A stretch of 64,000 bases of DNA from positions 9,709,664 to 9,773,663 of the forward strand of contig CM049315.1 in NCBI GenBank assembly GCA_026874595.1, given 5' to 3'. Both the position numbers and the translations under genes were made by a program. Source of the DNA: Sipunculus nudus (Eukaryota; Annelida; Sipuncula; Golfingiida; Sipunculidae). This document shows, piece after piece, positions 19,601 through 63,684 of this stretch (positions are counted from its first letter, which is position 1; every line of letters starts with the position of its first letter). The notes under the pieces are model-generated. The model had not been told where the DNA came from. It was given only the letters and a program-made list of their open reading frames with translations, and did not search any database.

Positions 19601-22600
19601 TTGTCAACGTCTGCAGGTTTCCTTATTAATTTTACTTAATGGTGACGTCACACAGGGAACCGTCCTGAAAGGTCAGATGCTTCATGTGCTGGAAACGAGA
19701 AGTTTGTTATTTCTGGGGTCACCGAAAGTGGCAGCACTTGAGCAGCTCTTGGGCAAAGGACTGTACCTGTCGGATATCCCAATTCATGACGCAACCCGTG
19801 ACGTCATTTTGGTTAAAGAACAAAATAGAGCACAGGTAAATCGTACTTTTTTCAGAACAGAAATTGAAACGAGAAATGGTTTAGTGAATCATTTGAAATT
19901 TCTTGGTGTAAAGCTTTAATTTTTCTATTTCGGGCTTAGTATATAAGAGGCCTACAGAAATTATAGTCTAATTTGTTATATATCAACCATACGCTTTAAA
20001 CCGGTGTTTAAAATTTATGAATTATTATCCTTTAACCACTGATCAAAGGAGGAGAGATAATGTGGGCAGCCAGCCATGGGCAATATGTTTTTCATTGTTC
20101 AGTCGAATTAATGCTAAATACTGGTGTTCAAAAACACTAAACTTTTGGAACAATAATTCACCATTGATGCATATTTCTTTACTCCATCAAAACCTTGATG
20201 TGCTCGCGTGCATAAAAAAATTAATTATTAAATTTGAGTAGTCTCAGGTAATTTACCGTGTCTTTAGGGTAATTTAGAAGAAACTGATTAAGGGAAACAC
20301 ACGGGGACTGTACAGGTTTGTCATAATTGTGCTGTGTATATCAAAGGACAGTCTTAAGAAGCGTATGGAGCAGCTAAGGCGGCGCATTGAAGAGGCAAGC
20401 GGTGCAGTGGAGGCAGAAAGAAGAAAGAATGTGGAATTGCTGTACTTAATATTCCCGCCAGATGTAGCGAAAAAATTGTGGAGAGGTAATTTTTTAATCT
20501 AATTCTCTTTTAATATTTTTTTAAATACATGAATACATTTTCATTATAAATATAATATATATATTTATAGCTAAACGTTAAGCACGTTGGAGCATCGAGT
20601 TATTACTCCAAATTTCACGCCGTTGCCGGTCACGGCACCGGGCGATCATCAGATAACTGACGCTTGTGGGGGACCAAATTAACCTGCTCTGCCTTAGCTG
20701 TATGGAGCACCTGCTGCAAGCACTGAAACCTACTTAGAACTATATATATATATATATAGTCCAACCGCTAAGATCACAAGGAGTTAATTAAGGGGATCAA
20801 GACTTTAATAAATGAACATTACCCAAGGTTGAGGAAAAATCACATGCCAAGATTAAAATTAAAGGATGACTTCACGTAGAGTTTACAATGAGCTGCGGTA
20901 CCTTTGTGCAAGTAAAATCAATCAAAATGAGATGGACCTCTGTGTACCAATTTCATCAAGTTTAAATTATCAACTGATAGGCTGACCAGCGGGTACCTAC
21001 GATAATTAAACCTTCACCAGTCGTGTCAGCAAGGGTTCTTGTTCAACAGATTTTCCTTGAAGGGAATTCATTCCGTTTTAGTTTAAATATAACATTAATC
21101 TTATCATATCTAACACTCACATAGACGTGCATGGTCTATATTTTGTCACAATATTGATAATAAACTTTAGATAAAATAAGATTATTTGCCTCAATTGTAC
21201 TGGTACAGATGGGTATTTTAATATCAACTGGTTAGTCACTGTACCAGTACAGATGGGTATTCTAATCTCTATACTGGTACAGTTCTACAATACAGATTGG
21301 TGATTTAATCTCTACCTTTAGGTCACTGCAAGTACACATGGGTATTTTAACCTCTATAGGTGCGGTTCTACCAGCAGAGATAGGTATTTTATCTCAAGCG
21401 TTACGTTTCTACCAGTTCAGATGGCTGTTTTAATCACTTCTTGTACGGTTATACGATTACAGATGGGTGTTTTAATGTCTACTGATACAATTCTAACCGA
21501 ACAGATGAGAGCTTTAATCTCTACCGGTACGATTCTACCTGTACAGATGGGTATTTTGATCTCTACTAGTATGGTTCTATCAGTACAGATGGCTGTATTA
21601 ATCTCTACTTGTACGTTTCTACTTGTACAAATGGGTCTTTTAATCTCTACTGGTACGGTTCAACCCGTTGAGATTGGTGTTTTGATGTCTTAACTGGTAC
21701 AGTTATTCAAGTACAGATGGGTGTTTGATCTTTATTTGGGTTCTACTAGTACAGTTTGGTGATCTTATCTCTACTGGTACGGTTCTACCAGTACAGGTGG
21801 GTGTTTTAATCTCTACCCATTAAGGTTCTGCCACTACACATGGCTGTTTCAGTCTCTACTCATTCGGTTTTACCAATACAGATGGGTGTTTAATCTCTAT
21901 TGGCGGGGTTCTACTAGTACAGATTGGTGTTTTAATCTCTACTGGACGGTTCTCCTAGTACAGGTGGGTGTTTTAATCTATTTTGGACGATTCTACTAGT
22001 ATATATGGGTGTTTTAATAGCTACTGGTACGGTTCTTCCGTACAGACGGGTGTTTTAATCTCTACTCGTGCGGTTCTAACAGTACAGATGGGCGTTTAGG
22101 TCTCTACTGGTAAGGTTCTACCCGTACAGATGGGTGTTTTAATCTTTACTTGTATGATTCTACCAGTACAGATGGGTGTTTTAATCTCTATTAGCACGGT
22201 TCTACCATTACAGATGGCTTTCTTTAATCTTTACTGGTATGTTAAATCTCTACCCGTACTGTTCTACCAGTACAGGTGGGTGTTTAATCTCTACTGGTAC
22301 CTATCTACCAGTATACAGATGGCTATTTTAATCTCAACTGGTGTGATTCTACCAGTACAGATGGGTGTTTTAATCTCTATTAGCACGGTTCCAACAGAAC
22401 AGATGGGTGTTTTAATCTCTATTAGCACGGTCAAAGAGTACAGATAGGTGATTTAATCCCAATTGGTAGGTCATAACCAGTGTGACAATTAAGGCGGAAA
22501 GGAGAACTCGAGTACTTGGGTCCGGGTAATACCTACTGAATACCCGACTCTAAAGTTTGGACTCAAGTATTTGTGAGTGTACTTGCATATGTGAATATTA

Positions 22601-25600
22601 CTGCAAAATTACTTGTAGTCTATGTGTACAGTAGTGCTTTAACCTGTGCAACCACAATGAACAGTCGTGTGAGCATATAAAGTCGGTCTTTTGTTACTCT
22701 TCGTTTCTTTTGCAATAGACACCAGTTACAACAAACATAGGCTTGCTATTATGCCAACATTTTAGCCAACATCAAGTCAGATTTTACACCAGTAAACAAA
22801 TGTCCATCTTACGTCTCGTCGGGGTTGTCATGGTAACCAGTTCTCGAGTCCGAGTCGGGTAATGCTTTTCGAATACTCGTATATCCGAAATTAGATATTT
22901 GTGTTATCCCTGTAATGTCAATGTGTATATGAATATAACACGTTTTTTGTTGACATGCCCCCTACAAATCATGTAGTGCCGGCTGATATAGGCGTGCCTT
23001 GTGACTCGTGTGGCGTCCTTGCCAGCCTATAAGTAATGTTTATAAGTGACAGTCAGACGCCTCAGGGTTTACTGTGTCAAATGAGTCCTCACGGGAGACA
23101 GAGATAAATTACCTCCCTAAATCATGCTGCTATCTCCTGCCTGTAATATAATATTTGTGCCAAGTCATTATTGGAGTTTTTATCCCTTGATGTTATATGA
23201 TAGCAATATTCACGAATAATAAGAGCAATAATAAATCTAAAGGTGAATCGAATTGATATAATTAACTTTTGCTAATTCAGCGTAATTATTTCATTAACCC
23301 CTGCAATGCAGTGACCATTTATCCCAGTTCATCGACATCACTGTACACAACCGGTAGTCTTTTTACATAAGACTAAAACACATTGTAAATCTAACCTCTG
23401 TGCTAAGTGCCTTCATATCCAGTTCCGTGTACGACTCGGCTGTATATCACAGAGCCAAAACATATTTAGTTTTCACAATACAGTGGCGTTTTTAAGACAG
23501 AGGGGGTGAAGCATCATACTCTCATACACACCAATGTTACACGACTGCACAAAGCTCTGCAAGGCTGGCTCATTACATTTCATATATCAGCGCATTTACA
23601 GGTGATGAAAAAAATAGCGAGGGAGTAAGAGGGCCCTCTCATAGATTATGTTTATAATCTAGAAGAGAGTAGATGCCATTTCCAGGCGATTCAGTTTGAA
23701 ACTAAAACATTTTATGATGTACAAAAAAATGAATTTTTAACGGCTGGTAATGTCTATCGATACAAACTAAATGAAGGAAAAGAGAATCACTTCTGTTTTC
23801 ATTGTTATCTCGTCATCGGCTCCTAAGGTATTATCATCATGATTAGTCTAAATTCAGAAATTTAAAAATGACAAGTATGTGCGAGTTCAGAGTGGGCACT
23901 TCAACAAGCTAGAACTGGCCTGATGCCGAGGCATTACTTGTATGTATGTTACACATCACTTTACGGTGAATATGATAAATAGATCTTCCAGGATACTATA
24001 TTTCAGGAAAACATTATATTTTTTCCTGTGGTAATTTGCCTGTTCAAATTAAGATGGTGTGATGACCAACATGTTCGTGCAGTCACTTCCCATCACGCCG
24101 AACACGTGACCAGTGAGGTTTCTGCATGGCATCTTTTTCTGGGTCAGGGAAAGCGTTAATATAATTCAAGGCATATTTCATTCATAAAATATACATAAAT
24201 ATACATAACCAGTGTGTTATAGCCAAAATAACAGATGATAATAAAGCTTCCTATGCATATATGAATAGTTAAGAGAGAAAAACGGGAGATAAAAGACGTA
24301 AGCGTGGAAGTTATCCGTTCATTTCCAGCAATAGTCCTGAACAAATCGGATATTCTTATATTTCATATTTTTTATCCAGAATGAAATTAACAGAAGCAAA
24401 GCAAATATAAAATGTATGTATAAATTATATAAAATATCTTTGACTGAAGAGTCCGTGATGCATGTTTATTTGCGTCGTCCATCAGAATAGGTGAGGGTTC
24501 CCCTTTGCGCTCAATCCGCTTGAATACGACCCTGTAATACGCTTAGTCACAACAGACCCTCGTGAATTGACGGGTGTTTTTAGAAAGAATATAAATATAT
24601 CTAACGGCTTGTTTGGTATTTTGGTTAAGTGACAGCGTAATTCCTCATCAAGATTTTCAGTGCAATGTTCGATATGACTAGCTTTCCCTCCATGATTTAT
24701 CAGTAGACTTGCCCCAACTTCACGTCTTCTTTGTCGGAACCAGTCTGGAGTGCAGTTCGTCCCGCATAGACACTCTGATGGAAGCTATACTGAAGAAGCT
24801 AGGGACATGAGAAAATTCGTGGAAAGAAACAGCTATATTCAATTAATCTTATCCAGAACGAACCTGCCTGCTTTTTCCGCAGACACCAAGCTGGTTTAAT
24901 CGCTGCAAGCGAGGTGTTTGAGACGTGAAAAAGTCTAACAATACAGAGCAGAGGCGATTAATCTTGACAGACTCCAGGTTTGTGTTTTTATATAGAAAAA
25001 CGATACAGAAACTGTTGTGATCAGAGGGTCTTGTACTGAACGCACTAAGGTCAACATCAAATGTCAGACCTTTTTAATTTCCTAATATTCATAAATAGAT
25101 CATTCAAACATAAGCACATATTGGTAGAATAAAGCATTATATACACATAGTGAATTGAAGACTTTTCATAGATTATAGAGGAGCTTAATTATAGCAGGGT
25201 CGGCATTTAAATGCAAATATTTCTAATTAATTAAATAATAAAATACTATTTGCATTTGAAAACCAATCTTTTTCATATACTCACATGCAAATGCAGAACA
25301 ACTGCTCGCTCTGCGTTTTATTTTCAATGCAAATTACACGGAGCTTCAGACCGCCCTCTGAGAGAGATGGGCTGGGTAGGTGTATCCCTAGAGGAGAGCT
25401 GCAACTGTTAAATTCACACCGGAGGAATGTTACTCGTCTCAATCATGAAAAGACAGTGGTCTACAACCGCTAGGGTGATCGCTAGGGAAGCCTTCGAGCT
25501 TTTAAAATTAGGTTTAGGTCAACATGAAATATAATTTTGATACATGTGACTTTTACTAGATTACTCGGCGAAGGCGGAGTTAGATGAACATAAGAAAGGT

Positions 25601-28148
25601 ATAAGGAAAAAAAAAATAAAATAATTCTCGTCGATGGGTTTTCACTCTACAATAGCTAAGAAAGACCCCCTCCCAATTAAAAACATCTGGACTCAAATAT
25701 TGGTATACATATAAACTCAACAACCGCAATAGATAGAACACTAGAACAACTGAATTTGCAAGTTCGATTTTATAGGTGGGAGACGTACAGCAGACGTTTC
25801 AGTGCTGTATATTTACAAGTAACAAGTGTATTATTAATGTTTTTTTTATTCACCAGATGAGCAGGTAGTACCGACGCTCGTTGATGACGTCAGCATGCTG
25901 TTCAGTGACATCGTCGGATTCACGTCAATCTGTTCCATGGCCACGCCCATGCAGGTCGTTAGTATGCTGAACGCCCTCTACACCAAGTTCGATTCCCTGT
26001 GTGAACTCATTGATGTTTACAAGGTTTGTGCTGTTTTGATTTTATCTATGGCACTTGCAACCAATCAGTTAAAATAATGGCTTAAACAAATATCAGTAAA
26101 TTTTATAAACTTACACTATACTGTAAGTGCAAAAGCTGTACCTAATGTTCCCCCAAAACATCTGTATTCGAAAAAAACACCGGCAGCATGGAAGCCTATA
26201 GTTAGCTTCAAACAGCTCTGCATCCACTCAGCGCACAGACCTGCACAGAATTGTCACGCGTGTCTTCTCACAGAATATAGTCAATCAGAGGGTGGTGAAA
26301 CATTTTGTGCGATTCTGTTCTTACTTTCTTTTTTTACCAATTTTGCTAACACGCTTCCTAGATTGAACCTTTTTAGGGTGTTATTCCCTCGTTGTAAAAG
26401 ATAAATTCCTCCTTTCCTCAAAGATCCGCCAGGACGCTCATGCAGGCAGACTTTGGTAGTTCCGGTCTACCATATATGTGGCCAATCTGCATACCTACTG
26501 GAACAATAGACATGTTGTCACATCTCTGGTTCACGCAGCGTTTATTTAAAGTGATATATTTTACAAGAAATGGGAATCAGTTAAACTAACAAAGTTACCG
26601 TCTTACTGCCTTAGCGTCCTTCCGGCGTCCACCCACAGATTTTGTTTCTTCTCTTTTATTTCTTGAACGTTTTTGATTTTGTTTGCTTTATCTGATAGGG
26701 CTAGGTATGGGCTTTTGAACTTCTACACAGAATTTGAAAATAATTACTTATATGCTAATTCATGCCATCTCAAAATTACAACAACAAAAAAACTTCTTCA
26801 GCCTTATTTATTGACTGATTTTGAGTCTGCTTCTTTGGCCGTATTGAGCTTGGGTCGCCCTTAACAGTTCTGGCCCCCTGAGATCTTTATAAGATGTAAA
26901 GTTCATTCCATGCACCTAGGTAAATTTGCATTATTTTTATTATTAATATTTTTGGTGGAGGTAACCGCCTCCATTTTTGAAATGCTAACTTAACTATGTA
27001 CATGTACATCTGCAGAATTCCATTCCAGTTTCGGACTTCGTGACATTGCACTGTCACACGCTTCCTTTCATATGATATCCTTGCGCCAACCAAGCCCGGT
27101 GATTACTGCACTTGCATGCCCAGAATGCGTAATCATCCTTATTGCTGGGTCGTACCACCGAGGAAACCCCGAAATGCGCACTCTTTTGTGAGTGAATCAC
27201 GGCCGCTGGGTACGGCCTTCCCATTAAGCCACACCCTTGGTGGGGGCCGACTGTGAAAAATCTCACCGCTTCGGCTGAGATTTGAACTAACGATCTCCCT
27301 GTCCTGTGCTCTACCCCTGAGCCACAGAGGCCGGTAATTTGCATGATTTTATGTTGAGGAGTGCACCATGTCACAGACGTATAGAGAGCGTTCCATAATT
27401 TAGTTTGCATTCATTCTTTCTTCCAAGATTGGTTTTTATGACGAAAATCCTCTGTATAATCCAACTAGCTCCTTCCCTTTGTACTGATAAACACAGATCA
27501 ATTCTAAAAATTAAAAATAAAACATTCACCTTTTGTTAAGCATTCTGAGCTCAAAGCCACTGATAACCCACACCATTAGAAAGAAAGATACGAAGTTCTA
27601 TCTCAATACCCTGTACATTTTCCATCGCAGACGGAAACGATTGGAGATGCTTATTGCGTAGCCAGCGGTCTCCATCGACCTAGCGAACTACATGCCCAGC
27701 AGGTGGCGTGGATGGCACTAAAGATGATGAAGACTGTAGATGAAGAACGCACACACAATGGGAAAGCAATACAGGTCAGACTTCTGACATCCATCAAATA
27801 AATATTAATAAAAATAATCATACATTAACTTAGTAAAGTTGGTTATTTTGCGTAAATATACATCTTAAGCGTATGGTTCATTATGATACCAATGTTTTGA
27901 TTATCAAAATGACGCAGGGCTGTATATGTAGCGATTTTCAGTACCTGAATTAGATTTTTGCATTGCCTAAGCATATAAAGGCAACATGCGGCATGCACAC
28001 AAAACCGTTAAATCAAGTCCGATTTACATACAAAACACACTATGTTTGTTGCAGTATAACTCATATTTATCCTGTGAATGTAATGATTATTATATGACAT
28101 TTACGTATACTGATGTATATTTCTCGATTATCTATATTTATCTATATC

Positions 28149-28189
<41 letters not shown>

Positions 28190-29807
28190 ATATAAAATCC
28201 TCCAATATACGTGCTTGGCCTTCCTCAGTCCAAGCGTGAAGCATGCTTTCGTACGTTTTTGCATGTAAATGGATAACGGATCATACAGATTTTAAGATGT
28301 CATGATTAACGGCAGTGAGAAGAGACACGCAGGTCAATTTCATAAAGTTGGCGCTGCTAATTTTTATTATTTTCCTCTCAAATTTCACGCAAATATAACC
28401 ATCCTGGCACACACGTTACATTAATGCTTACGGTTGAAGAACATAACAGTGCATCCGAGATGCCAGACAACGGAGGGCCACGTGGGCAATGACTTCATGC
28501 CCCGCCATGTTGTATACGGTATATCTGGTCATAGCTTAAACGATTGGACAATCCATTTTGTTATATAAACAGCCTTGATGGGGCGTTCTAGTGTTTTGTT
28601 TGCATATTTTGAAATTGCTGTTAGTCACTGAATTCCTTTCTGTTTCAGCTGCGTATTGGCTTACACAGCGGTTCTGTCCTGGCTGGCGTTGTCGGCACCA
28701 AAATGCCTCGTTATTGTTTATTCGGAAATGACGTCACTCTCGCCAACAAATTCGAATCTCACAGTGAGGCCCGGCGCATCAACATAAGTCCAACCACATA
28801 TACGTGAGTACCTAATTAATAAGAGACCAAATTAAGCAGCTTATTTAGTCATTTTAAGAATCATATACGGATCATTAGCAATTCTTTTATGCATAACAAT
28901 GACTTGCAATCAGACAAAATAAAATTTCATCGAAAAAGAGGCCCACTGTTTCAGAGTGTGTTACCTTTCAACTTTCTCGGCATGCAAGATGTTGTTTCAC
29001 AAGATAAATGTGACCGTTTTTTTGCGAACTTGCGTGCAAACACTTATTTTTTATAATAAAAAGGCGACTGACAAAGCCAGAATCACGTCAATATTGGAAT
29101 TGCCTATGATTTGTCCTTATCATTTGCATGGTGGAATATATGTTTTCAGGAATTTCAATTTTCAATTCTTTGGGCTTCAAAATCCAAGAGTTTGGTGTAT
29201 GAATAAAAACTTTTGTTAAATATTGACGAAATTACGCGGAAAATCTCACTTAAATGACTATACTTCCAAAGACCGAATGGTACAGCCAGATTCTACATAA
29301 GCACAATTTAGTTAGTAAAAATTACCATCACGAACAAGTCTAGCAGGGGAATGGTGGTTATGGTTGGCCATTAGTCGGGCAAATGTCTATACCAAAGATA
29401 CAAGCAGAGCAAGCTCACTAAATATGGGCGTCACGTGCAGTCAGTGTGTCATTAAACAGAATTCAAACTATAATATTCCTGTAGCAAAAAATGTAAGATT
29501 ACTGTTCTGTTCATGTATGACATTGTTTCATTGCACGTTTACTGTTTAATTTACGTATGCCATTGTCACTTATATATTTGTGTGTACCATTGTTCCATTG
29601 TAAGAATATACTGTTATATTTATATATGCCATTGTTTCACTGTAACATTACTGCTATATTTATGTATGTCTTTGTTTCATTATAATATTATTCATATATA
29701 TTGATACACACACACACACACATATATATATATATGTATGTATATACAGTATTTAGCATCAAGCTAATGGAGCACTGTTAGATTGGTGTAGCATCTATAT
29801 ACTTCTA

Positions 29808-29861
<54 letters not shown>

Positions 29862-30062
29862 ACACACCATTGTTACAGTTTGCTCCAGAAGACGCCTGGT
29901 TTCACCTTCATCATCCGGCCACCCGAGTGTCTGCCCGCCGGGTATCAGCCGTCAGAGGATGCGAGGTGTTACTTTATCGACCTGTACCAGCATCCCGGAG
30001 CTGCTGCTGAACATGAAGATCAGATTCTCCTGGCTCTGGAGCACTATGGTATCACGAAATGA
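14328..30062 (+). CDS. Soluble guanylate cyclase alpha-type subunit, 10 coding exons
   Basis: The alpha subunit of the NO receptor pairs with a haem-carrying beta subunit to convert GTP to cGMP in the cytosol. Joining 14328-14540, 16357-16418, 16797-16885, 17546-18252, 19656-19835, 20347-20485, 25857-26023, 27631-27774, 28649-28803 and 29879-30062 gives 2040 nt, a 679-aa protein, with every intron GT-AG and all phases compatible. Residues about 60-270 are a divergent HNOB-like region; about 272-415 an HNOBA/PAS-like region ([12 protein letters not shown]); 418-455 a charged coiled coil; 460-640 the class III cyclase domain. Metal-binding aspartates are D481 (LFSDIVGFT) and D525 (TETIGDAYC). 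[12 protein letters not shown] has lysine at 601, where beta subunits carry the catalytic arginine, so this is an alpha partner. Length matches vertebrate alpha-1 (about 690 aa). An in-frame TGA at 14292-14294 supports the start. Alpha-1 versus alpha-2 type was not resolved. Confidence 0.93.
14765..15525 (+). repeat. Mollusc-type dispersed repeat in cyclase intron 1, with 333-bp internal duplication
   Basis: It begins CTCAGCTGACTGAAAGTCAT and a GTCTGTCTGT tract, the same opening as the repeat at 60530 in this window. A block starting CATTGATCACC occurs at 14923 and again at 15256 (period 333 bp), each followed by CATGCATATTGATCATGGAG and CTATTTTTGAGACCTTCA. The phrase 'CAAATCGTAACCA.TGGACCTA' recurs around 14869, 15065 and 15409. 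Confidence 0.7.
15725..15778. repeat. (TA)n tract in cyclase intron 1
   Basis: TA run with a few AAA interruptions. Confidence 0.95.
16357..16418 (+). CDS. Cyclase alpha exon 2 (aa 72-92)
   Basis: A short 62-nt exon between a TTACAG acceptor and a GTAATT donor. It reads [20 protein letters not shown] and leaves phase 2; the split tryptophan codon TG|G is completed by exon 3. The match of phases on both sides is the main support. Confidence 0.75.
16611..16672. repeat. (CATA)n(TA)n tract in cyclase intron 2
   Basis: About five CATA units followed by about 17 TA units. Confidence 0.95.
16797..16885 (+). CDS. Cyclase alpha exon 3 (aa 92-122)
   Basis: An 89-nt exon between an AAG acceptor and a GTAAGC donor. 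It reads [12 protein letters not shown] then [17 protein letters not shown] and leaves phase 1. It belongs to the HNOB-like part; similarity to known alpha subunits is weak here, so support is mostly splice logic and coding-like codon use. Confidence 0.75.
17546..18252 (+). CDS. Cyclase alpha exon 4 (HNOB-like end and start of HNOBA; aa 122-357)
   Basis: The largest exon, 707 nt, acceptor ATGCACAG, donor GTAAGG, ending phase 0. It holds [15 protein letters not shown] of the HNOB-like fold, then the HNOBA core with [20 protein letters not shown] and [11 protein letters not shown], which line up with vertebrate alpha subunits. The open frame runs on upstream into intron sequence through a GTG, which is not a real start. 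Confidence 0.93.
18253..19655 (+). other. Cyclase intron 4: no further element recognised
   Basis: A 1.4-kb AT-rich intron. I see no repeat array, RNA gene or extra exon. Intron 5 (19836-20346) is likewise plain. Confidence 0.6.
19656..19835 (+). CDS. Cyclase alpha exon 5 (end of HNOBA; aa 358-417)
   Basis: An exact 60-codon exon, acceptor CACACAG, donor GTAAAT. It contains [17 protein letters not shown] and [19 protein letters not shown], among the most conserved blocks of soluble cyclase subunits, just before the coiled-coil linker. Confidence 0.95.
20347..20485 (+). CDS. Cyclase alpha exon 6 (coiled-coil linker; aa 418-464)
   Basis: A 139-nt exon, acceptor ATCAAAG, donor GTAATT, leaving phase 1. 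It encodes [17 protein letters not shown] and then [18 protein letters not shown], the heptad-rich signalling helix that joins the sensor region to the catalytic domain. It is too short to be seen as a stand-alone ORF. Confidence 0.93.
21190..22470 (+). repeat. 42-bp minisatellite, about 30 copies, in cyclase intron 6
   Basis: Degenerate units contain CAGTACAGATGGGTGTTTTA followed by ATCTCTACTGGTACGGTTCTAC. The period is close to 42 bp with small indels. Because 42 is a multiple of three and stops are rare in one frame, parts stay open and read as a 14-residue repeat ([14 protein letters not shown]-like), but nothing suggests they are translated. Confidence 0.9.
22471..25856 (+). other. Rest of cyclase intron 6 after the minisatellite: nothing recognised
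   Basis: 3.4 kb of AT-rich sequence with no open frame of coding character, no clear tandem array and no recognisable transposon end. A short TA tract lies before the minisatellite at about 20742-20758. Confidence 0.55.
25857..26023 (+). CDS. Cyclase alpha exon 7 (first catalytic aspartate; aa 464-519)
   Basis: A 167-nt exon, acceptor TTCACCAG, donor GTTTGT, ending phase 0. It holds [14 protein letters not shown] with metal-binding D481, and [22 protein letters not shown], which match class III cyclases closely. It follows the largest intron of the gene (5.4 kb). Confidence 0.97.
27050..27335 (-). mobile_element. tRNA-derived SINE in cyclase intron 7
   Basis: On the minus strand a tRNA-like head reads GCCTCTGTGGCTCAGGGGTA, with an A box TGGCTCAGGGG (27314-27324) and a B box AGTTCAAATCT (27278-27288), the two internal RNA polymerase III promoter parts. 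A non-tRNA body of about 200 bp follows toward 27050. The fold is degenerate past the B box, so this is a retroposon rather than a working tRNA gene. It is antisense to the cyclase gene. Confidence 0.72.
27631..27774 (+). CDS. Cyclase alpha exon 8 (second catalytic aspartate; aa 520-567)
   Basis: A 48-codon exon, acceptor CATCGCAG, donor GTCAGA. It starts [15 protein letters not shown] with metal-binding D525 and continues through [12 protein letters not shown]. Family members usually have VETIGD; threonine in place of valine is a mild change. Confidence 0.96.
28149..28194. repeat. (TA)n(TG)n microsatellite in cyclase intron 8
   Basis: A run of TA followed by a run of TG dinucleotides. Confidence 0.95.
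28649..28803 (+). CDS. Cyclase alpha exon 9 (catalytic core; aa 568-619)
   Basis: A 155-nt exon, acceptor TGTTTCAG, donor GTGAGT, leaving phase 2. It carries [16 protein letters not shown] and [20 protein letters not shown]. Lysine in NKFES rather than the beta-type arginine marks an alpha subunit that needs a beta partner for activity. Confidence 0.97.
29705..29743. repeat. (CA)n(TA)n microsatellite in cyclase intron 9
   Basis: CA dinucleotides passing into TA, about 135 bp before exon 10. Confidence 0.9.
29809..29853. repeat. (TA)n tract just before the exon 10 acceptor
   Basis: A near-perfect TA run ends 25 nt before exon 10, leaving only a short weak pyrimidine stretch before the TGTTACAG acceptor. 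Confidence 0.95.
29879..30062 (+). CDS. Cyclase alpha exon 10 (C-terminus and stop; aa 619-679)
   Basis: The acceptor TGTTACAG lies about 25 nt after a long TA tract. The exon reads [19 protein letters not shown] and later [11 protein letters not shown], matching the end of the cyclase domain, and then has a short tail ending HYGITK before TGA at 30060-30062. Confidence 0.93.
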
Positions 30063-46469: not shown

Positions 46470-48461
46470 CCATTAAAAGAGTTCAATGACAATCGTCACT
46501 TGTCCTTGTTTGTTCGGAGAGTGGTCGCGATCGGTGACGATGAATTCACGCAACATGTATGTATTATTTGTTTTCGAGATACAAAATTGCGCATACTGAA
46601 GCACAAACATTTTGTGTATTCGAAGGAAGAAGAAAGAAAGCTATGTTTCATGTTTTTGAGTATAACACCTCTGGTTTATATGATATTATGAATATGATCG
46701 ATTAGGAAATGTTCACATAAAATATCAATTGAATATTGATATAATTTTTCCGAGATGCTAGCATTTTACTTCAGACTGGAATGTCGCTTTGTTTTGTAAC
46801 CTGTCTTGTCATGCATGGTCTCTCACATTTCGAAATAAAAAAATGGATTAGGGTTAGTCAGCTGGCGTACTTGCCCAGTCATATATAGTAATAACTACTT
46901 AACCGAAATCTAAATTTTTCATGCCATGGAACATTTTGACGTCAAAGGTTGTCAAGAGCAACAGCTGTCAGGAAAAAGCGAATGAAAAAGGGCAGATTAG
47001 GTAAGAAAGATAGACAGCTGTGCTGACTGTGATGACCCTGGTCGCCTCCTTACACTCTAATCCAGTTAGCCACCCAATGAAGAAGATTTGATGGATTGGC
47101 GGGATGTATCGGGCGGTGTCTCACAGAAATTGATTGTGATGGCTTAAGGATAAGCACTCGACTTGTGATCGCAAGGTCGTTTTTGAATGGTTGTTATTAC
47201 TGAGCCAAATGTATTCTGCCAGTCTTTTAGTTAAACGTTGTTATCAGGAACCTATAAACAATCGCGGCAGCTACTGTCATTTCACTTTATGTCGATTAAC
47301 GTTAGCCTCTTTGCACGTCAAAATGACTTAACTACATGCCGCCCAGGTGTTGAAATCGTAACATTTCGTGGCCGATCGGCATGTCGAGTGAAAAAAAATT
47401 CCATTACATGACGATGCCGTACGAGAGGAGTACGATGCCAATTCGACTTGCTACGGTGCAGTACGACAGTGACACGATGCCAGCACGATATGGCACGAGA
47501 CTTTTAAGAATGTTCACCATCCGTTATGACGTACAAGAAACTGGTACGATATCTGGGCTAAGAATTATGGACGACGCCATTATGAATAATCAATCCTGCG
47601 TCGCCATGGCCGTATAAATCACGTGGTTATTTTTTATTTCGCACCTTGGCCTGCAACCAAGAATTATTGTTAGAGCTGCCCTATTGGAGGAAGAAAATCT
47701 GATGCTGGCCTTGGCTGTCATGATCTTGAAAAGCCGCAGGAAGAATCCTGCGTAATGTCCAGAAGTTACGATGGGCTTGAGTCCAAACTAAATTGGACTA
47801 CTGATCACTTTTCCAAGAATAAGACTCGAAAATCAATGAATGGGATTTAGACACGGCTCGGCGTCAGGCGGAGAATATCTTAAGTCCATTAAAACAGAAA
47901 ATGGAAATGACGACTGATATGTACGACAAGTTTAAGAATATAAAAAAAGGTAGAAATGGTTTCTAGACTGACAGATTTACATTACTTGGTTTTTAGGTAG
48001 ATATATGTGATATTTAGCTATTATAATATCAAAACAAAGAACATAAAATTATAAGTGAAAGCAACCCATAAGAAAATTAAAAAAAAAACCACTTCTTTTA
48101 TAGTGGCAAATATGACTTCCACCCCTTAAACCCTGACAGACGACGTGCCTAAATCTGATGTAAAATATCTGTATTATCAAAATATTGGTTAAAATATCTA
48201 ATTGATTCTGCCCTCAATTTAATATGTGATAATTCTTTTAATATGAATTTGTCTGTATCTCGAATTATAATAATAGAATGCCAGCTTTTGAACACCTCCG
48301 TGACTTGGTGTTATTCTCTAATAATAAAATAGGAAAATAACACATCAAATTGAGAGTGTGTTTAAGTATGGAGAAATTGAATAATCTATCCAGCATCTTC
48401 ATATTATTTAGGTTCGAATTAAGTTGTATACTTCCCCGGACGTCATTCTTTAAAATCACCA
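46470..48461. other. No gene recognised
   Basis: A 78-aa plus frame at 47381-47617 lies in a patch with imperfect repetition of ACGATGCC and TACGAC words (about 47410-47490); it looks like repeat, not gene. Confidence 0.45.
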
Positions 48462-48518
48462 AGGATAACCTATACAAACAAGGATAACCTATACAAACAA
48501 GGATAACCTATACAAACA
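48462..48518. repeat. Three-copy 19-bp tandem repeat
   Basis: AGGATAACCTATACAAACA three times in a row; the last copy differs only at its end. Confidence 0.93.
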
Positions 48519-49430: not shown

Positions 49431-49701
49431 ATTAAGAGAAGAAAATAACTGACGGAAAGTTAACAAGATAGTAAAATCATATTACTGTAATATAAGATTT
49501 AAAAGCGATTTAACAGGTAAAGTAACATATACGAATTAATTAGTTCGGTTCATTCAACTCACCAAATTAAATTGTCTCATGGCTGAACTGGTGATAATTG
49601 AGTTCCCTGTTGTTATGCATGAATTACCCTCGGTGACGTAATATATATTGTAATTGCGTATTATAAACAGTGCAGGCGAACAAGGAGCACATGTGAAAAG
49701 A

Positions 49702-49939
49702 GGCGGTGTTATATGAGGTACAGCCGAGCTTATCAGGCGCTGTTATAAGAGGTACAGCCGAGCTTATCAGGCGCTGTTATAAGAGGTACAGCCGAGCTTA
49801 TCAGGCGCTGTTATAAGAGGTACAACCGAGCTTATCAGGCGCTGTATTAAGAGGTACAGCCGAGCTTATCAGGCGCTGTTATAAGAGGTACAGCCGAGCT
49901 TATCAGGCGCTGTTATAAGAGGTACAGCCGAGCTTATCA
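49702..49939. repeat. 34-bp tandem array, exactly seven copies
   Basis: Units read GGCGCTGTTATAAGAGGTAC followed by AGCCGAGCTTATCA. Seven units fill 238 bp exactly. Only single-base variants occur in units 1, 4 and 5; the others are identical. There are no unique spacers, so it is not CRISPR-like. Confidence 0.97.
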
Positions 49940-53900: not shown

Positions 53901-53971
53901 TTAGTGTAGACAGCCTACTCGATCCCTTGGTATTAACCTCAATTCAGATCCGTGCTTCAAGAAAACATTAC
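53901..53971 (-). CDS. UFM1: UFM1 exon 5 (aa 64-86 and stop)
   Basis: Acceptor TGATTTACAG. It reads NVFLKHGSELRLIPRDRVG followed by CLH and TAA at 53903-53901. The glycine before CLH is the conjugation residue exposed when a UFSP protease removes the tail. Confidence 0.95.
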
Positions 53972-56176
53972 CTGTAAATCAAAAACATAATGCATCAGTA
54001 AAATGAATGCAGAAGCAGAAGAGGAATTGGGTACATCATGCCAACACAAATGCATAACGTATACATTAATTTGTGTAAAATCAGTATATGCTGATATACC
54101 TGTTATTTTTATTCACTTGCAGTAACTCTTATTTGTTATTTTTGGTATATCTTACAGTCAGGTATATAAAAAAGGTAAATTTGGGTTATTTCTAAAATTA
54201 TGCCTTACAGAAAATGTATGAATTGCTGACAACTGTCTTTAGGATTTCATGATAAATAAGGGTAATAAACATCAGATTAGATATAAATACTGGATGCAAA
54301 TATGTCAAATGTTTTTGATATTATACAGAAGATGTCATTTATATGCAACCATGCTTGGACCATAATATAAGGAGTTTAAACAAAAGGGCTTCTAAGTGAT
54401 ATATTATTAATAATAATAGAGTCTCTAATTCTTAACATACACCTTCAGCTTGTGTAGTGAGAAACTGATACAGAATAACACTACAACCATACCTGCACTT
54501 TGTGCTGGATTAATTCCTATGCCATCATTTGTGATGATTGCACTTGTGGCTGGTGGCACCTTGAACTGAGAGGGATTAATAACCAATAAAACTGTATGTT
54601 ATAAAACATGTACCACAGTTAGGATATTGAAAGTTTGTACTTTGAGATACAACTTTGGGTTACATTGTAACAGATAGTATATTATGTTACTGACCATAAA
54701 TGAAGCTTTACCATATCTACAGTTGTGACTTACAGGTCTTACATTATCAAAATTTATATTTAATGCCATTTAAAATATTTATTCTGCACAAAACATTACT
54801 GGTGTAAGACTGGCCTTCCACTCTTCAAAGATGCATCTTTTTTTCACACAAATAACTCCAGATGGTGTCTTAAATAAAATGTAGAATGTAATTTAAATAT
54901 TCTATGTAAAATATTGGCTTCATAAATATATATAACATTTTTAAGTTAAAAAAGTAGTTGATGTTGACGGTTGACCATATCATATGACATATCACAAAAA
55001 TTAAAAAAAAAAAGAATAACGTTACTATTTTATTTAATATCATGTAACAAAGTGTGTACCTCCTCAGCTGCAAACTTTAACACTGCTGTGAAGGGTGTCT
55101 GTTCTGGTACACTTAAACTGAAAATAAATATGTACTGTATATATATATATATATATATATATCTTATATTTATTTAATATTCAATATTTATTTTTAAATA
55201 AAACTATCTGAAATGGTTGTCTGTTGAGCAAATTATTAACAAACACAGCATACATTGAACTAATTTGCTTATACCTCTTAGTGTCAGTATTAGAGTTTAT
55301 TGATTCTTACACTCGGATACAGGAATCAAATCAAAATTTTATTGAAATATATAGTATACACTTAATTGCTAATACTATTCAGTATTATGCTGTTTTCATT
55401 ACCACTCTGAAATATGGAAATTACCAGATGGCAGGTCGTATGTACAACTTGCTAACGTTCAGTACCCAACAAAAGACTCACTGATTGGATGTCTAGGTGG
55501 TTATAGTAACCAAAAAGAAACTAATCAATAAAATATGTTTCATGTCACATTTGTTCACTTTTATTTGTCATTTAAAACTTTAATGTAAACCAATCAAATA
55601 TTTGTGTCTTTAAATGCACCCTGCATCTCGAAAAGAAGTGAATAAAGGTAAAGGCGCTAAGTGGGACTGATCCTCATGCTCCACAGAATCCCACTTTCCC
55701 AGTGGAATGTTCTACTTGGATCATGTTTCGAACGGTAATTTCCACTGGGAAACTCCTAATTACCATATTTCCGAAAGGTAAAAACGCAGCATTATTATTA
55801 GTATTACTGTAGACCCAATGAAACTCATTGCTTCTAATATTTGATTATAATCTTTACTATCAATTTTATTCCTAGTAATAAACAGATCTTATATTGTTAA
55901 CACTAAATTTATTTACAATGGTCAGGGAAGGGGGCTACACTACAGTACAGCCTACTGTATGGGACTGATCCTGATGAACTAATAATAATTAATATGGTAT
56001 ACTCACACTTTGTAAGGAAGTTTGGGGTCAGATGTCAGTGTGATCTTGAATGTTACTTTCGACCTGTAAAAAAACAACACGCAGTCAAAACTGATAGGCA
56101 AAAATAACAATTTTAGTAACAGAAAGGGACAATTTCTCTTTAAATATTAAAACATATTGTACCACCCAACTCACAT
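53901..56176 (-). CDS. UFM1: Ubiquitin-fold modifier 1 (UFM1), 5 coding exons
   Basis: UFM1 is a small ubiquitin-like protein attached to lysines through UBA5, UFC1 and UFL1, acting in ER-associated ribosome and protein quality control. On the minus strand the exons are 56176-56175 (coding part), 56063-56007, 55117-55060, 54565-54493 and 53971-53901; all introns are GT-AG and phases agree, giving 86 aa. Diagnostic blocks are SKVTFKITLTSDPKLPYK, LSVPEQTPFTAVLKFAAEE, ATSAIITNDGIGINPAQSAG and HGSELRLIPRDRVG. Human UFM1 is 85 aa. G83, the residue conjugated after cleavage, is in the expected place, followed by a three-residue tail CLH instead of the human SC. The start codon is split AT|G by intron 1. 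A TIR transposon lies 45 bp upstream of it. Confidence 0.95.
54493..54565 (-). CDS. UFM1: UFM1 exon 4 (aa 40-64)
   Basis: A 73-nt exon with acceptor CTCTCAG and donor GTATGG. It reads FKVPPATSAIITNDGIGINP then AQSA and one base of a glycine codon. Confidence 0.95.
55060..55117 (-). CDS. UFM1: UFM1 exon 3 (aa 20-39)
   Basis: A 58-nt exon with acceptor ATTTTCAG and donor GTACAC. It completes valine 20 and reads LSVPEQTPFTAVLKFAAEE, ending phase 0, nearly identical to vertebrate UFM1. Confidence 0.95.
55139..55162. repeat. UFM1: (TA)n tract in UFM1 intron 2
   Basis: Short TA run, about 20 bp from the exon 3 acceptor. Confidence 0.9.
56007..56063 (-). CDS. UFM1: UFM1 exon 2 (aa 1-20)
   Basis: A 57-nt exon with acceptor TTTTTTTACAG and donor GTGAGT. 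It supplies the G of the start codon, then SKVTFKITLTSDPKLPYK and two bases of a valine codon. Confidence 0.95.
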
Positions 56177-56221
56177 TTTGACAGCTCCACGAAACCGGAA
56201 CTAATATAGAAACGGCAAAAT
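56175..56221 (-). CDS. UFM1: UFM1 exon 1 (short 5'UTR plus AT of the start codon)
   Basis: Read on the minus strand this ends GGAGCTGTCAAAAT followed by the donor GTGAGT. Only the last two bases, 56176-56175, are coding: the A and T of ATG, whose G is the first base of exon 2. The upstream limit is unknown; 56221 is the edge of the transposon's target-site copy, not a mapped transcription start. Confidence 0.75.
56213..56221. repeat. Left 9-bp target-site duplication CGGCAAAAT
   Basis: Identical to 57672-57680 on the other side of the TIR element. Confidence 0.85.
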
Positions 56222-56933
56222 GGGTCTGTCTAAAACGCGGAGAATCCGCGGAGAGATGGAGAATTCGCGGAGAATTTGCGGAGAGTTTTTATATGCAATG
56301 TAACTTTTAAATACACTTTAAAATCTCCAACTTTATTACACTTAAAATATTTGCGCACTGTTAAATGGCCGAAATAATTAAAAAAATCTGTACATTACTA
56401 AGCATTTTATGCTTAACAATGTGGACTCACCCCCAGGTGAATGTGTAGTATAGGTAATATATGTAACACGTACCCGTCTGCACGAGTCACCAGCTCACAC
56501 TGACAGATCTTAAGACGAAACCGCAACACTCTTAAATTAATGTTTCAAAAGTTTATTGTGCAAACCATATCAAAACCATGCAGGTGTATCAAATTTACAG
56601 GTGGTGAACGAAATATATAATATAATAAATTAATCATATACTTATACCTACAGTTATTGATAGTTTAATGATATATAAAAAACACTATCACCATTTAGAG
56701 TGTATGGACCCAATTTACATGCACAAATAAAAATGGAAACACAAACATTCGACTTTATACACAAACAATGAGTGCACCTTTAAGCTAATGAATCAACTTG
56801 GCATAAGGATTATATAAAATAAAAGAAAAAATAGTGTATATATTTTGATCACAGTTAAAGAATAATAATGTTCTTATAGTCTGTACAAATTTAATACACC
56901 ACACTTCTTTCTGACCATAACGATACAGAGTAC

Positions 56934-56974
<41 letters not shown>

Positions 56975-57671
56975 TATAGCACAATGTACACTTTCATACA
57001 GCAATAGCAAAGAACTTATTTGTACACTGAATCTTCACAAAACCATTTCATTAACTGTTTTATTTATTTTAAAGACAAATGCACATTTTAAATGAAACCA
57101 CATTACTTTTTTTTTATCATACCCAACCTTGTCTTCGAACACTCTCCTAAGCCACATTAACATTCAGTCCCGATGGTTACAGTTGCATTATATTTAGGCT
57201 TTGGTATTTGAGGAGAAAGTTTTGTTTTATAGGAAATGGTGTAAAAAAATTAATCCCTGAGCTGAAACAAGAGACTAAGTGCTTTTGCATTAAAATGTTT
57301 AATTTGTTTAATTTCTGGAATGAAACAAAAATCAACTGCATTTGCAATCACAAATGGATCACAATCTTCTGATGCCATACGTTGTCACTGGCGTGGCACA
57401 AATAAAATCTTATCGGAGAAGAACTTGCTTGCCCAAACGACTGGGAGAGCTGAATGTTACGTGAATGTACAGATTTTTAATTATTTTTTGTCATTTAACA
57501 GTGAACGAATATGTTAAGAGTAATATAGTTGCAGATATTAAGTGATTTTAATGTGTATTTAAGAGTATCATATTGCATATAAAAACTCTCCGCAAATTCT
57601 CCACGAATTCTCCGCAAATTTTCCGCGAATTCTCCATCTCTCCGCGGATTCTCCGCGTTTTAGATAGACCC
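56222..57671. mobile_element. 1,450-bp TIR transposon (Mutator-like by TSD size) upstream of UFM1
   Basis: The left end reads GGGTCTGTCTAAAACGCGG and the right end CCGCGTTTTAGATAGACCC, inverted copies with one mismatch. The inverted arms run about 90-100 bp and hold internal repeats of a GGAGAATTTGC/GGAGAATTCGC unit; the right arm has one extra unit. A perfect 9-bp copy CGGCAAAAT flanks both sides (56213-56221 and 57672-57680). Nine-bp duplications with long TIRs are typical of Mutator-like elements; this assignment is inference. The interior holds an (ATA)n tract and no transposase frame, so it is non-autonomous. Confidence 0.88.
56934..56970. repeat. (ATA)n microsatellite inside the TIR element
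   Basis: Trinucleotide run; on the minus strand it gives an artificial poly-tyrosine frame. Confidence 0.95.
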
Positions 57672-57680
57672 CGGCAAAAT
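57672..57680. repeat. Right 9-bp target-site duplication CGGCAAAAT
   Basis: Identical to 56213-56221. Removing the element and one copy rejoins the ancestral UFM1 upstream sequence. Confidence 0.85.
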
Positions 57681-58320
57681 ATAGCGCCTGTGAACAGCCG
57701 ACGCTCACCTGTCACTGGATCCCGCGGTACGAGACGAGCGTCTACCAAACTGGTTATACTGCTGCATTAGGAGATACAGCCCCTGTCAAGTGTAAGTAAA
57801 TGTGATAAAACTGATTTATCATGATCTGTGAAATCGAATATCTATATACTTGCCGAATCTAGTCGCACCCTTCAGAACTTGCACGTGAGATTAGGGCGAT
57901 AATAAGTGCACATTAAAGTCATTATCTTATGCTATACTTATAACTTTACACATTTGGTACAGAAATAAACAAGTAAACGATATGTCTGGTTAAAAAGTCA
58001 CCGAAAGAAATAATGCGGCAGAACTATAGAAACCGGGCTTCAGCCTACCGCCGGTACCTTATGCACAACGGGTGTCGCATAATAAATTGTTTCCTGAAAA
58101 AGGCCGATACATATTATTTTCCTGAGAATTCCCGTATTTAATTTTGCTCATAACTGGAGTTTATTATATTAGAGGAGGAGGGGTCCGGGGAACCTGGGTT
58201 TCCCGTCTGAAGGGGGGTGTGGGGGCTCCGCCCCCATATAAAGCTTAATTTTCCTGTTCAAATAGTAAATGGTTTCCCCATTTCGCAATATCAATTTACA
58301 AAACTCGCTCCTACTGGTAT
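57681..58320. other. Ancestral UFM1 upstream sequence, then no gene recognised
   Basis: Sequence immediately right of the target-site copy is the original UFM1 5' flank displaced by the transposon. No divergent gene is visible. A GGGG-rich patch lies at about 58173-58232. Confidence 0.45.
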
Positions 58321-58329
58321 CTCGTCTTC

Positions 58330-58460
58330 ACGGCTCACTTAATAGGGTGTAGGGCTCCTAGTCTAGAGATCGTAGGTTCGATTCCTGATTCAGGCGACTT
58401 CTGATGCTTAGTAGTTGATTATGTTAGAAGAGTTGAATGTAGGGACATCTACAGGGAAAA
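58330..58460 (+). mobile_element. Possible tRNA-derived SINE
   Basis: A perfect B box, GGTTCGATTCC (58375-58385), follows an A-box-like CGGCTCACTTAATAGGG. The anticodon and T stems pair poorly (about three pairs each), so it is a tRNA-derived retroposon or a dead tRNA rather than a working tRNA gene. Confidence 0.45.
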
Positions 58461-60529
58461 GTAGGAGTAAAAATAGGGAATGACAGGAGACAGTTTTATT
58501 TATATTTTCCTCAATAGAAGGGAAGCCTGCGTTCTATAGTGGCTCCAATAATGCTATGTATGCACCTAATTAAATGTGATCATTAATTTCTGGGGAAGGT
58601 TGCTGATGGGGAACGATTTTAACAGCAGTTGAGTAAGTTCATTGACCTGGTCAATGACCAGATACTTGGGGTCAAGAGGTCATTAGTCCCATCCACTTGT
58701 GGACCATGAAGTTAGGTAATAGCTATGCACAATCTATGATACCTTGATCTCCATGGTCAAGTGGGTGTTTGGATAACAGATGAACCTGCATAGATTACCT
58801 GCTGTTTACTTTTAAAAAATAATTCAGTGTGCATTTCTTTTGTGTACATGACACATGTGTAGGGCAGAATTTCTTTTTTCAATAATTTTTCAGTTTGAAG
58901 TTATATTATACAAACACTTTTTTAAAATTTACAAAAAAAGAATATTTTTAAATCACGTGATATTTAGTTAAATTGTACATTTCTTCATGTAAATCTTTCT
59001 TTTTCTGAATGTTTATTTTTTTTAATCATCCCATTTTGAAGTTTATTTTTTTTCATTTGGCTGTGGTTGATAGGTTTTAAAAAAGTTTGTGCACAGTATA
59101 TGGTTTCATCTACTTCAATTGTTTTTAATTATAAGAAATAAGACTTACTTTATCTGATGTTCAGTGTTACTGTTCAGGTGAGGTCTGAAGTCTAAACAGT
59201 AGAGATGTTCAGTGGTCAGATCACTTAAATCAATTGATCTATTTTCATGATTAAAATATCATAAGTGATGCTGTTTCTTTTTTAGATGGAAAGAGCTCAG
59301 TGACCTCAGGTATTCAAGTCATAATGTTTCATGTATAATTAAGCGGAGTGCCTATTGACAACAGTCCAAAGCTGGCAAAAGTCTAGGTTACCTCAATTTG
59401 AGGTCTCTGTTTCCAAGTTTTGCAGTCGTGGGTACTAAGAATTATAAGTCTCAGTAACTGTGTGTCAGGAAAGCATCTGTGGTCACTGCCTGCCAGCAGT
59501 GATCAGTCAGCAAACCACAATTAAGCTGCGGCAACGTTGCACTAAATTAATCACTTAGATCACTGGTATCCTTTTAATCAAAGGGCTAGGTAACTTCAAA
59601 GGCCACCATGGATATTTGGCGTCATGAAATGTGGTGATTTTTACCATTGTGAAGTTTTTCTTTTACCTTACTGTAACAGGAATTACCAAAAATTGTATTT
59701 TTGAGAGTTTTTTTTCAGTGACCTATTTTAAAACCTTTTAGGCAAATTATAAACAAAAGTTATAATCTGTAATATAAATGAGATGTATACTTATAGAAAA
59801 TAATGAAAGGTGGTGGTTTTTAGAGTCATTGTATCTCCTAAGTTTAATTTTTCGGCTCAAATTTTCATCTTCCACCATAACGGTATGCACTTGGTGATGA
59901 CGTTGCCTAGAAATGTTGCATCTTCCAAGCTATATTTAAGGACATTTAGTCATTACATATCAAATATGTTTGTTATTCTTATATAGGTATATATTTTTTT
60001 CTATATTAAAGAATAATAAAATTTTGGAAAAAAATGTGTCAATGATAGTAAAATAAGCAGGGCCAACGATTAGGATCCACTGTATACAGAGGTTGAGAAG
60101 GATGATACTTGAGAAGACTGGAGGAAAAAAGTTATTTTTTTTTTAACATTAAGGTGGCAGGACTGGTCCCCCCCCACCTGACCTGACTTTGTTTCAATTT
60201 TTCCTTTGCATTGAACAATCTAATGCTTTAATACCCCCTAAAGTAGATATTTTCTGAAAGCTAAGAAATTTCTCTATAGTTTGAAGATAATAAACTTTGT
60301 TTCTGAGGAACAAGTTTGAATTTATACAAATTTTAATTAAATTTTAATATTTAACAAAAAAACATTTATTCCAGCACAACTAAAGCAGATACAGAAAATC
60401 TTCCTTAACAAATTGAGAATTTAGATAATAATCCCCAGGCATTTTTTTGTTTAGTGAGATAAGTTTAAAAATAACGATTTTACAGAGTATTTAATTTTGA
60501 AATCTTCACAAATCATTTCATTTTTAGCT
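58461..60529. other. No gene recognised
   Basis: AT-rich, with T- and A-runs; no coding or repeat structure that I can support. Confidence 0.5.
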
Positions 60530-62861: not shown

Positions 62862-63281
62862 TTTAGTGTAGGTGTAAAATAAGAAAACGCTTTTTAGAAG
62901 ACATATAAACAATTACATATATCAAAGATGGTATGTTTAGGACAAGTAATTACTGAGAAATAACGCTCTAAAGATATGGTGTTCAGGTGCAATGATGTTT
63001 CAAGAAAATGGCCAAAAACTATATTTGTAGAGATCGTTTGTCCTACACGCGTAACCAACCACAACTACATGTTTAGTATAGGTGTAAAATAAGAAAACGC
63101 TGTTTAGAAGACATATTAACAATTACATATATCAAAGATGGTATGTTTCGGACAAGTAATTACTGAGATATAACGCTCTAAAGATATGGTGTTCAGGTGA
63201 AATGATGTTTCGAGAAAATGGCCAAAAACTATATTTGTAGAGATCGTTCGTCCTACACGCGTAACCAACCACAACTACATG
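62862..63281 (+). repeat. 210-bp tandem duplication, two copies
   Basis: 62862-63071 and 63072-63281 begin TTTAGTRTAGGTGTAAAATA and end CCACAACTACATGT. They differ at only a handful of bases, so the duplication is recent. Confidence 0.95.
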
Positions 63282-63684
63282 TTGACAGTCACATGAATTT
63301 GGTCAAGACGGTGGTTCTTATCAAACCATGCCATAATAACATGGATTAATTGACTATTTTGCTTTAAAAACGTATTAAAACGATAACATTTTGTCCTGTC
63401 ACACCAGCAACTTGTCAAACACCACGTGCATGGACTTCAGTAGGTGGAGCTTACAGTTTTGGCAAAGTGCCAAGGTGCGCTGAGCACCCAACAACCGGGA
63501 CCCACGGCTGAACAGGTGCATAGCCGGGCCTATTAGGTAACCGCATGTTTACACAGGAACAAGGGGAGCTGGATCTATGGCCATGCAAGGAGAACGAAGA
63601 TTGATTTACTTTTCACGAATTACATACATTATAGGTATTCTTATAAGAAGGTTTATTTACATGGAATCTATAAATGGCAATAAA

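Follow-up and report, generated by a model that had tools for sequence, protein, structure and literature searches.

Our analysis of a 64,000-bp stretch of Sipunculus nudus DNA (contig CM049315.1; the whole stretch is hereafter called the window) revealed a DNA transposon of 1450 bp inserted directly upstream of the UFM1 gene, 45 bp from its start codon. Terminal inverted repeats (TIRs), a target-site duplication of fixed length and a dispersed multi-copy family are all present, which identifies it as a TIR (cut-and-paste) DNA transposon. The original prediction, made from the window only, had proposed such an element with an intact 9-bp duplication next to UFM1; it is corroborated by the perfect CGGCAAAAT flanks and by the family found in the genome. 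Overall, the insertion is genuine, has clear limits and belongs to an ordinary type, transposons in promoters being well known. Taken as a whole, the explanation that we consider probable, with appreciable room for doubt, is that an old insertion of this family lies in the UFM1 promoter, that UFM1 would be transcribed from a start inside the 45 bp that were kept and that the element would act as a passive spacer. The insertion comprises the following features:

56222..57671, no strand: TIR DNA transposon, non-autonomous, 1450 bp (from its inverted repeats and genome copies)
56213..56221, no strand: target-site duplication CGGCAAAAT, UFM1-side copy (read directly, copies compared)
57672..57680, no strand: target-site duplication CGGCAAAAT, far copy (read directly)
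56222..56397, + strand: left TIR, 176 bp, starting with GGGTCTGTCTAAAACGCGG and containing 11-bp GCGGAGAATTC-like units
57464..57671, − strand: right TIR, 208 bp, 22 bp (two 11-bp units) longer than the left one

The two 9-bp duplications that surround the element match each other perfectly. Its outer 19-mers match at 18 of 19 positions, as had been predicted, the element end being a near-exact inverse of GGGTCTGTCTAAAACGCGG, and the inverted repeats extend well inside these ends, to 176 and 208 bp, with 155 identical positions among 174 ungapped columns (89%). The ends are of the 5′-GG type. With up to three mismatches, the 19-bp end is found twice in the window, compared to 0.02 matches expected. 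Furthermore, a scan for 9-bp direct repeats associated with 15-bp inverted arms (at most two mismatches, AT microsatellites excluded) retained two places in the window, the element itself (56222-57671) and 20363/20700; the control, 20 first-order Markov simulations, gave none at this threshold and 14 in total at up to four mismatches (20 sequences). Rfam, used with gathering thresholds on 55500-58500, gave no match.

The genome that we searched is a 1.43-Gb assembly of 153 contigs. The search for the 19-bp ends that the original prediction called for gave 441 matches with at most one mismatch and none for the reversed control. Searching with the whole element revealed dispersed copies, the best full-length ones besides that of the window being 88% identical with gaps counted (a lower bound; 40 of the 801 candidates were scored). 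Among the 92 ends listed on contigs C1-C6, there are 23 neighbouring pairs less than 12 kb apart, mostly separated by 0.8-0.9 or 1.0-1.5 kb; two listed pairs are much wider (8.9 kb and 10.4 kb). Thirty loci were fetched, including the window's own, and 27 of them carry both ends; L024, L026 and L027, in each of which one end was not found, are omitted from the alignment of copies. The 9-bp duplication is exact in 21 of these 27 two-ended copies, which correspond to 20 separate insertions, and it has one mismatch in two others. The four remaining copies do not show it, among them L004, which shows an exact 8-bp repeat. The possibility that other copies generally lack 9-bp duplications, which had been named as one point on which the prediction could fail, is thus not what the genome displays: the length of the duplication is constant in the family while its sequence varies by site. 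L028 (on C2) and L029 (on C1) are one insertion met twice, with duplications and flanks that are mutually reverse-complement and 0.8% difference; this pair reflects either duplicated host DNA or an effect of the assembly. The mean GC content at the 27 insertion sites is 0.43 within about 50 bp and 0.38 within 200 bp, compared to 0.37 for the window, and the insertion site of the 1450-bp element fits a preference for locally GC-rich DNA. No exact match was obtained outside this genome, either in viral contigs (end and 11-bp unit) or in prokaryote contigs (end), and a limited search of the literature text gave no match to the end sequences. No published description of a transposon family with these ends was therefore found, transposons in promoters as a phenomenon being already known.

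The gene located beside the element is UFM1, on the − strand, with the following exons:

56175..56221, − strand: end of exon 1 (start-codon A at 56176, T at 56175) and the 45 bp kept before the element
56007..56063, − strand: exon 2, G of the ATG followed by SKVTFKITLTSDPKLPYK and two bases of V (splice-signal borders)
55060..55117, − strand: exon 3 (splice-signal borders)
54493..54565, − strand: exon 4 (splice-signal borders)
53901..53971, − strand: exon 5, coding part, ending in RVGCLH* (splice-signal borders)

Exons 2 to 5 are intact (Pfam Ufm1, E 7.4e-44; best PDB chain, E 1e-47) and encode the features that identify UFM1, namely the Ufm1 domain and a Val-Gly ahead of a short tail (RVG-CLH). 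They were matched with a UFM1 query sequence and compared with Pfam and PDB. The predicted distance from the element to the start codon, 45 bp, stands (56177-56221, up to the start-codon A and including the 9-bp duplication) and can be refined, the start codon being split by an intron (AT|G) with the donor ..AAAAT|gtgagt, an intron beginning at 56174 and a G provided by exon 2. Since exon 2 opens with ag|GTCGAAA at 56063, the start codon needs an exon ending in AT; AT|GTRAG occurs at one site only on the UFM1 strand between 56060 and 64000 (intron start 56174), and exon 1 therefore ends 45 bp plus AT from the element. Reading the genomic ATG without splicing leads immediately to a TGA, and we rejected this possibility. 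As for a distinct UFM1 exon upstream of the element, which the original prediction had envisaged, no other coding first exon with an AT|GTRAG donor was found within 7.9 kb, in a test blind to other donor types; a non-coding exon is possible. A protein search of the genome with UFM1 gave two matches, both in the window gene (all six candidates scored), and no second UFM1 gene.

The insertion had been described as fairly young on account of its perfect flanks and similar ends, and this view is not supported. With only substitutions counted, the window copy is 5.5% divergent from the majority consensus built on the 27 copies. Its terminal branch (0.042) ranks 24th of 27 from the shortest. By comparison, 16 of the 27 copies diverge from this consensus by 0.9-1.8%, and terminal branches below 0.01 are seen in 12 (L028 and L029 included). 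To judge from these comparisons, the family has been active recently and the UFM1-side insertion does not appear to be among the young ones. The similarity between the two ends gives no date for the insertion, and the intact 9-bp duplication is a weak clock because as much as about 17% change in each copy would be compatible with it (95% level). The far TIR (57464-57671) is less changed than the rest of the window copy (4/193 compared to 72/1193; Fisher p 0.025), a split that was one among several examined and to which little weight is given.

On its far side, the element borders a region that may belong to a divergent gene:

57681..57791, + strand: CpG-rich single-copy flank with the donor CAAGT|GTAAGT, proposed as a non-coding first exon of a divergent gene

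Positions 57681-57760 hold eight CpG, a count that 6239 other 80-bp windows reach in 0.6% of cases. This flank is single-copy up to about 58005, contains no ATG through 57800 and presents the donor GTAAGT at 57792. Exons of PFAS (phosphoribosylformylglycinamidine synthase) are found on the + strand from about 21 kb onward, a profile search having matched eight of nine stretches. The frame at L032:4739 (C10:9788402), which is probably the first coding exon of PFAS, has an acceptor in front of it (ttcag|gaagcATG), and because this acceptor lies just before the ATG, a non-coding exon further upstream is suggested. From the arrangement of these signals, a head-to-head UFM1/PFAS pair with a short shared promoter, divided by the element, may be the simplest reading; a literature search on a bidirectional promoter of UFM1 found no paper on the subject. 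A second dispersed repeat starts about 335-345 bp past the element (about 58005-58100 and onward). Among its 41 listed matches, 40 are copies that match its first 84-96 bp at 94-100% identity (40 of 834 candidates scored), and this repeat is probably young and abundant.

According to the explanation that we prefer, the target would have been an open, CpG-rich promoter between UFM1 (− strand) and a divergent unit (+ strand), probably PFAS. What the data show directly is the insertion itself, with the 9-bp duplication usual in its family and 45 bp from the start codon of the sole UFM1 gene that we found. The UFM1 start would be located inside the retained 45 bp, giving a short leader; these 45 bp include a CCGGAA core (56195-56200, + strand; chance expectation over both strands of 45 bp, 0.008). 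UFM1 would have remained functional thanks to this start within the retained sequence, so that the element would be tolerated as a passive spacer, the old distal sequence being displaced by 1.45 kb. Compared with the rest of its family the insertion would be old, and it is probably fixed, not fresh. The suggestion that the promoter was replaced is not demonstrated by these data, and the 45 bp with the CCGGAA core are still present.

Several points weigh against this explanation. The UFM1 transcription start is predicted from sequence rather than from RNA reads, and CCGGAA is one of 12 motif patterns tried. The copies used for dating are the two-ended ones among the 30 best hits, a sample biased toward the best matches, and the terminal branch of the window copy may cover time before the insertion. 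The UFM1 protein search detected two of the five exons of the gene itself (the short exons 2 and 3 were missed), so a diverged short-exon paralogue could go undetected, whereas a copy without introns should have been detected. On the divergent side, the frame at L032:4739 taken alone matches nothing in NCBIfam and has only a chance-level PDB hit. Furthermore, the donor at 57792 is not unique, because six GTRAGT donors, this one included, occur on the + strand in the 21 kb before PFAS. When the 100-bp windows of this 21-kb stretch are ranked by CpG content, 14 of the top 15 are located elsewhere.

Other origins of the UFM1 transcript have to be considered, and two of them involve sequences carried by the TIRs:

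56287..56293, − strand: TATAAAA in the left TIR, outward, toward UFM1
57578..57584, + strand: TATAAAA in the right TIR, outward, toward the divergent + side

The transposon end could itself be the present UFM1 promoter, the TATAAAA at 56293-56287 firing about 30 bp downstream to give a leader of about 85 nt that spans the TIR, the duplication and the kept 36 bp; its mirror in the right TIR could likewise act on the divergent gene. We regard this as rather unlikely, although the motif is outward in both TIRs, the left one is kept in 24 of the 27 aligned copies, the predicted leader has no upstream ATG and the TIRs of such transposons are said, in parts of PMC6446971, to contain promoters. Indeed, TATAAAA is not rare in this AT-rich DNA (48 in the window and 0.13 expected per TIR, both strands counted), TIR promoters are expected to point inward, at the transposase, and the left TIR appears unconstrained, with 11 changes in 175 positions compared to 61 in 1018 inside the element. 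A start within the retained 45 bp is favoured over an outward TATA-like box. A more far-reaching version, in which one transposon took over a two-way promoter, with an outward TATA start in each TIR driving UFM1 and the PFAS-side transcript, seems to us improbable; if it were true, a housekeeping pair would have lost its shared promoter and would now run on two transposon ends.

There is likewise only a small chance that the old distal start beyond 57680 is still used, the element being read through or spliced out as an intron of the 5′ untranslated region. A consensus donor, CAG|GTGAGC, does exist on the UFM1 strand (intron from 57708), together with a weak acceptor (ctatattag) ending at 56201. 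However, this intron would have measured only about 49 bp before the insertion, while an unspliced read-through of the element and the 45 bp would meet 26 upstream ATGs and would contain a hairpin in which, according to the predicted fold, 158 pairs join the two TIRs. Finally, the original prediction had mentioned an impaired allele, that is, a recent, segregating and damaging one. The intact duplication and the position beside the start codon are compatible with it, as is the pathogenic 3-bp deletion known in the human UFM1 promoter (reported in PMC8471165), but the copy is 5.5% from its family consensus. A badly impaired allele is unlikely, and a recent damaging one very much so, given the apparent age of the insertion, the intact exons of UFM1 and a genome search that revealed no other copy of this gene.

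Stop-to-stop frames inside the 1450-bp element do not exceed 83 aa and no Pfam match was obtained in the three frames tried; the capture of a host gene by the element was rejected on this last ground. Longer relatives exist. L040 (8.9 kb) has the same ends as the window element and an exact 9-bp duplication, CCTAGTGAC. It aligns to positions 41-1191 of the element in four blocks and then to 1195-1450, and its additional DNA consists of about 4.5 kb at this junction and 3.1 kb near the left end. In the window, the junction is located as follows:

57412..57416, no strand: junction where L040 holds about 4.5 kb extra (L040 compared to the window copy)

As regards these 4.5 kb, we favour the window copy being an internal-deletion derivative over insertions gained by L040; the extra DNA of L040 may nevertheless be later insertions. 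The 18 frames of L040 gave only sub-threshold matches in Pfam (best E 0.045). The L041/L042 pair spans 10.4 kb and includes frames that, judged by eye, are reverse-transcriptase-like, and L037 is a copy interrupted by about 7.9 kb. Overall, no autonomous member of the family was recognised among the loci fetched.

MULE (PF10551) and Merlin-type (PF12762) transposase domains are common in the genome. Their positions were compared with 100 of the 441 ends, 92 of them on C1-C6. Within 20 kb of the ends listed on these contigs, there are none of the 52 PF10551 hits (the nearest at 23.9 kb) and none of the 32 PF12762 hits (the nearest at 246 kb), and the 19-bp end is absent from the 20 PF10551 loci fetched (about 3.3 kb each). 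A MULE with an open frame of 607 aa accounts for 43 of 131 PF10551 rows, mostly with equal scores (e.g. C10:17575435-17575728), and is probably a recent burst; no copy of it lies less than 20 kb from the ends listed on C1-C6. The small contigs C101-C138 carry frames for IS1595-type transposases with equal scores and no stops, which suggests that they are bacterial contigs (symbiont or contaminant) in the assembly.

Elsewhere in the window, exons of a guanylate cyclase are found on the + strand (17428-30059, the far limit being set by eye), with an HNOBA domain at 17428-18279 and a catalytic domain at 27580-27798. The second place retained by the repeat scan, 20363-20708, has the 9-bp direct repeat GTATGGAGC and 15-bp inverted arms, one of which lies within a probable exon of this gene. 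Tandem arrays occur at 49701-49939 (34 bp x 7), 48460-48518 (19 bp x 3.1) and 62862-63283 (210 bp x 2).

The family described here combines long TIRs with 9-bp duplications and has been active recently. The insertion beside UFM1 also provides a natural case of a conserved gene with only 45 bp of original upstream sequence beside its start codon, in which the minimal proximal promoter of UFM1 and a possible drive from the transposon end become directly testable questions.

The structure of the family can be compared with that of several known groups. MULEs have duplications of 8-11 bp and commonly long TIRs, according to sections of PMC6446971, two features that our family shares (TIRs of 176 and 208 bp), but no MULE transposase could be tied to it (none of the 52 PF10551 hits near the ends listed). 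The ends of arthropod MULEs have mostly conserved G/C at their first three positions, as far as an excerpt of PMC13359780 describes them. Maize Mu, the type of the MULEs, has TIRs of about 215 bp and 9-bp duplications and favours gene 5′ ends and GC-rich surroundings (extracts of PMC2774946). Similarly, the insertion surroundings of the S. nudus family are richer in GC than the window (0.43 compared to 0.37) and, over 21 sites, 26 of the 42 symmetrised outer positions of its duplication carry G/C, as in the Mu consensus; by contrast, the second base is not A/T-rich. Merlin elements are described in portions of PMC8101967 as having 5′-GG ends, duplications of 8 or 9 bp and TIRs of 24-462 bp. 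Our family resembles Merlin and IS1016 by its 5′-GG ends and a duplication within 8-9 bp; however, the duplication is of 9 bp in 21 of 27 copies whereas most Merlin families described there have 8, and none of the 32 PF12762 (DDE_Tnp_IS1595) hits is near the ends listed. Rehavkus, as presented in passages of PMC6446971, has a 9-bp duplication, TIRs of 26-400 bp and a minisatellite near the end, which recalls the 11-bp units in both TIRs of our family, but its transposase has a PHD finger and our family is devoid of any recognised coding copy. The structure therefore fits MULE, Merlin and Rehavkus alike, and placement in a superfamily requires a transposase.

Regarding the gene itself, the closest comparison is with the human variant c.-155_-153delTCA, a disease-causing 3-bp deletion in the UFM1 promoter that reduces transcription in neural cells, as described in PMC8471165. 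Both cases concern the promoter, and the human one demonstrates, within that account, that UFM1 is sensitive to promoter change. However, three base pairs are lost there with disease, whereas here an insertion of 1.45 kb is seemingly tolerated. It is because such a small deletion is pathogenic in humans that the tolerance of this insertion in S. nudus deserves attention.
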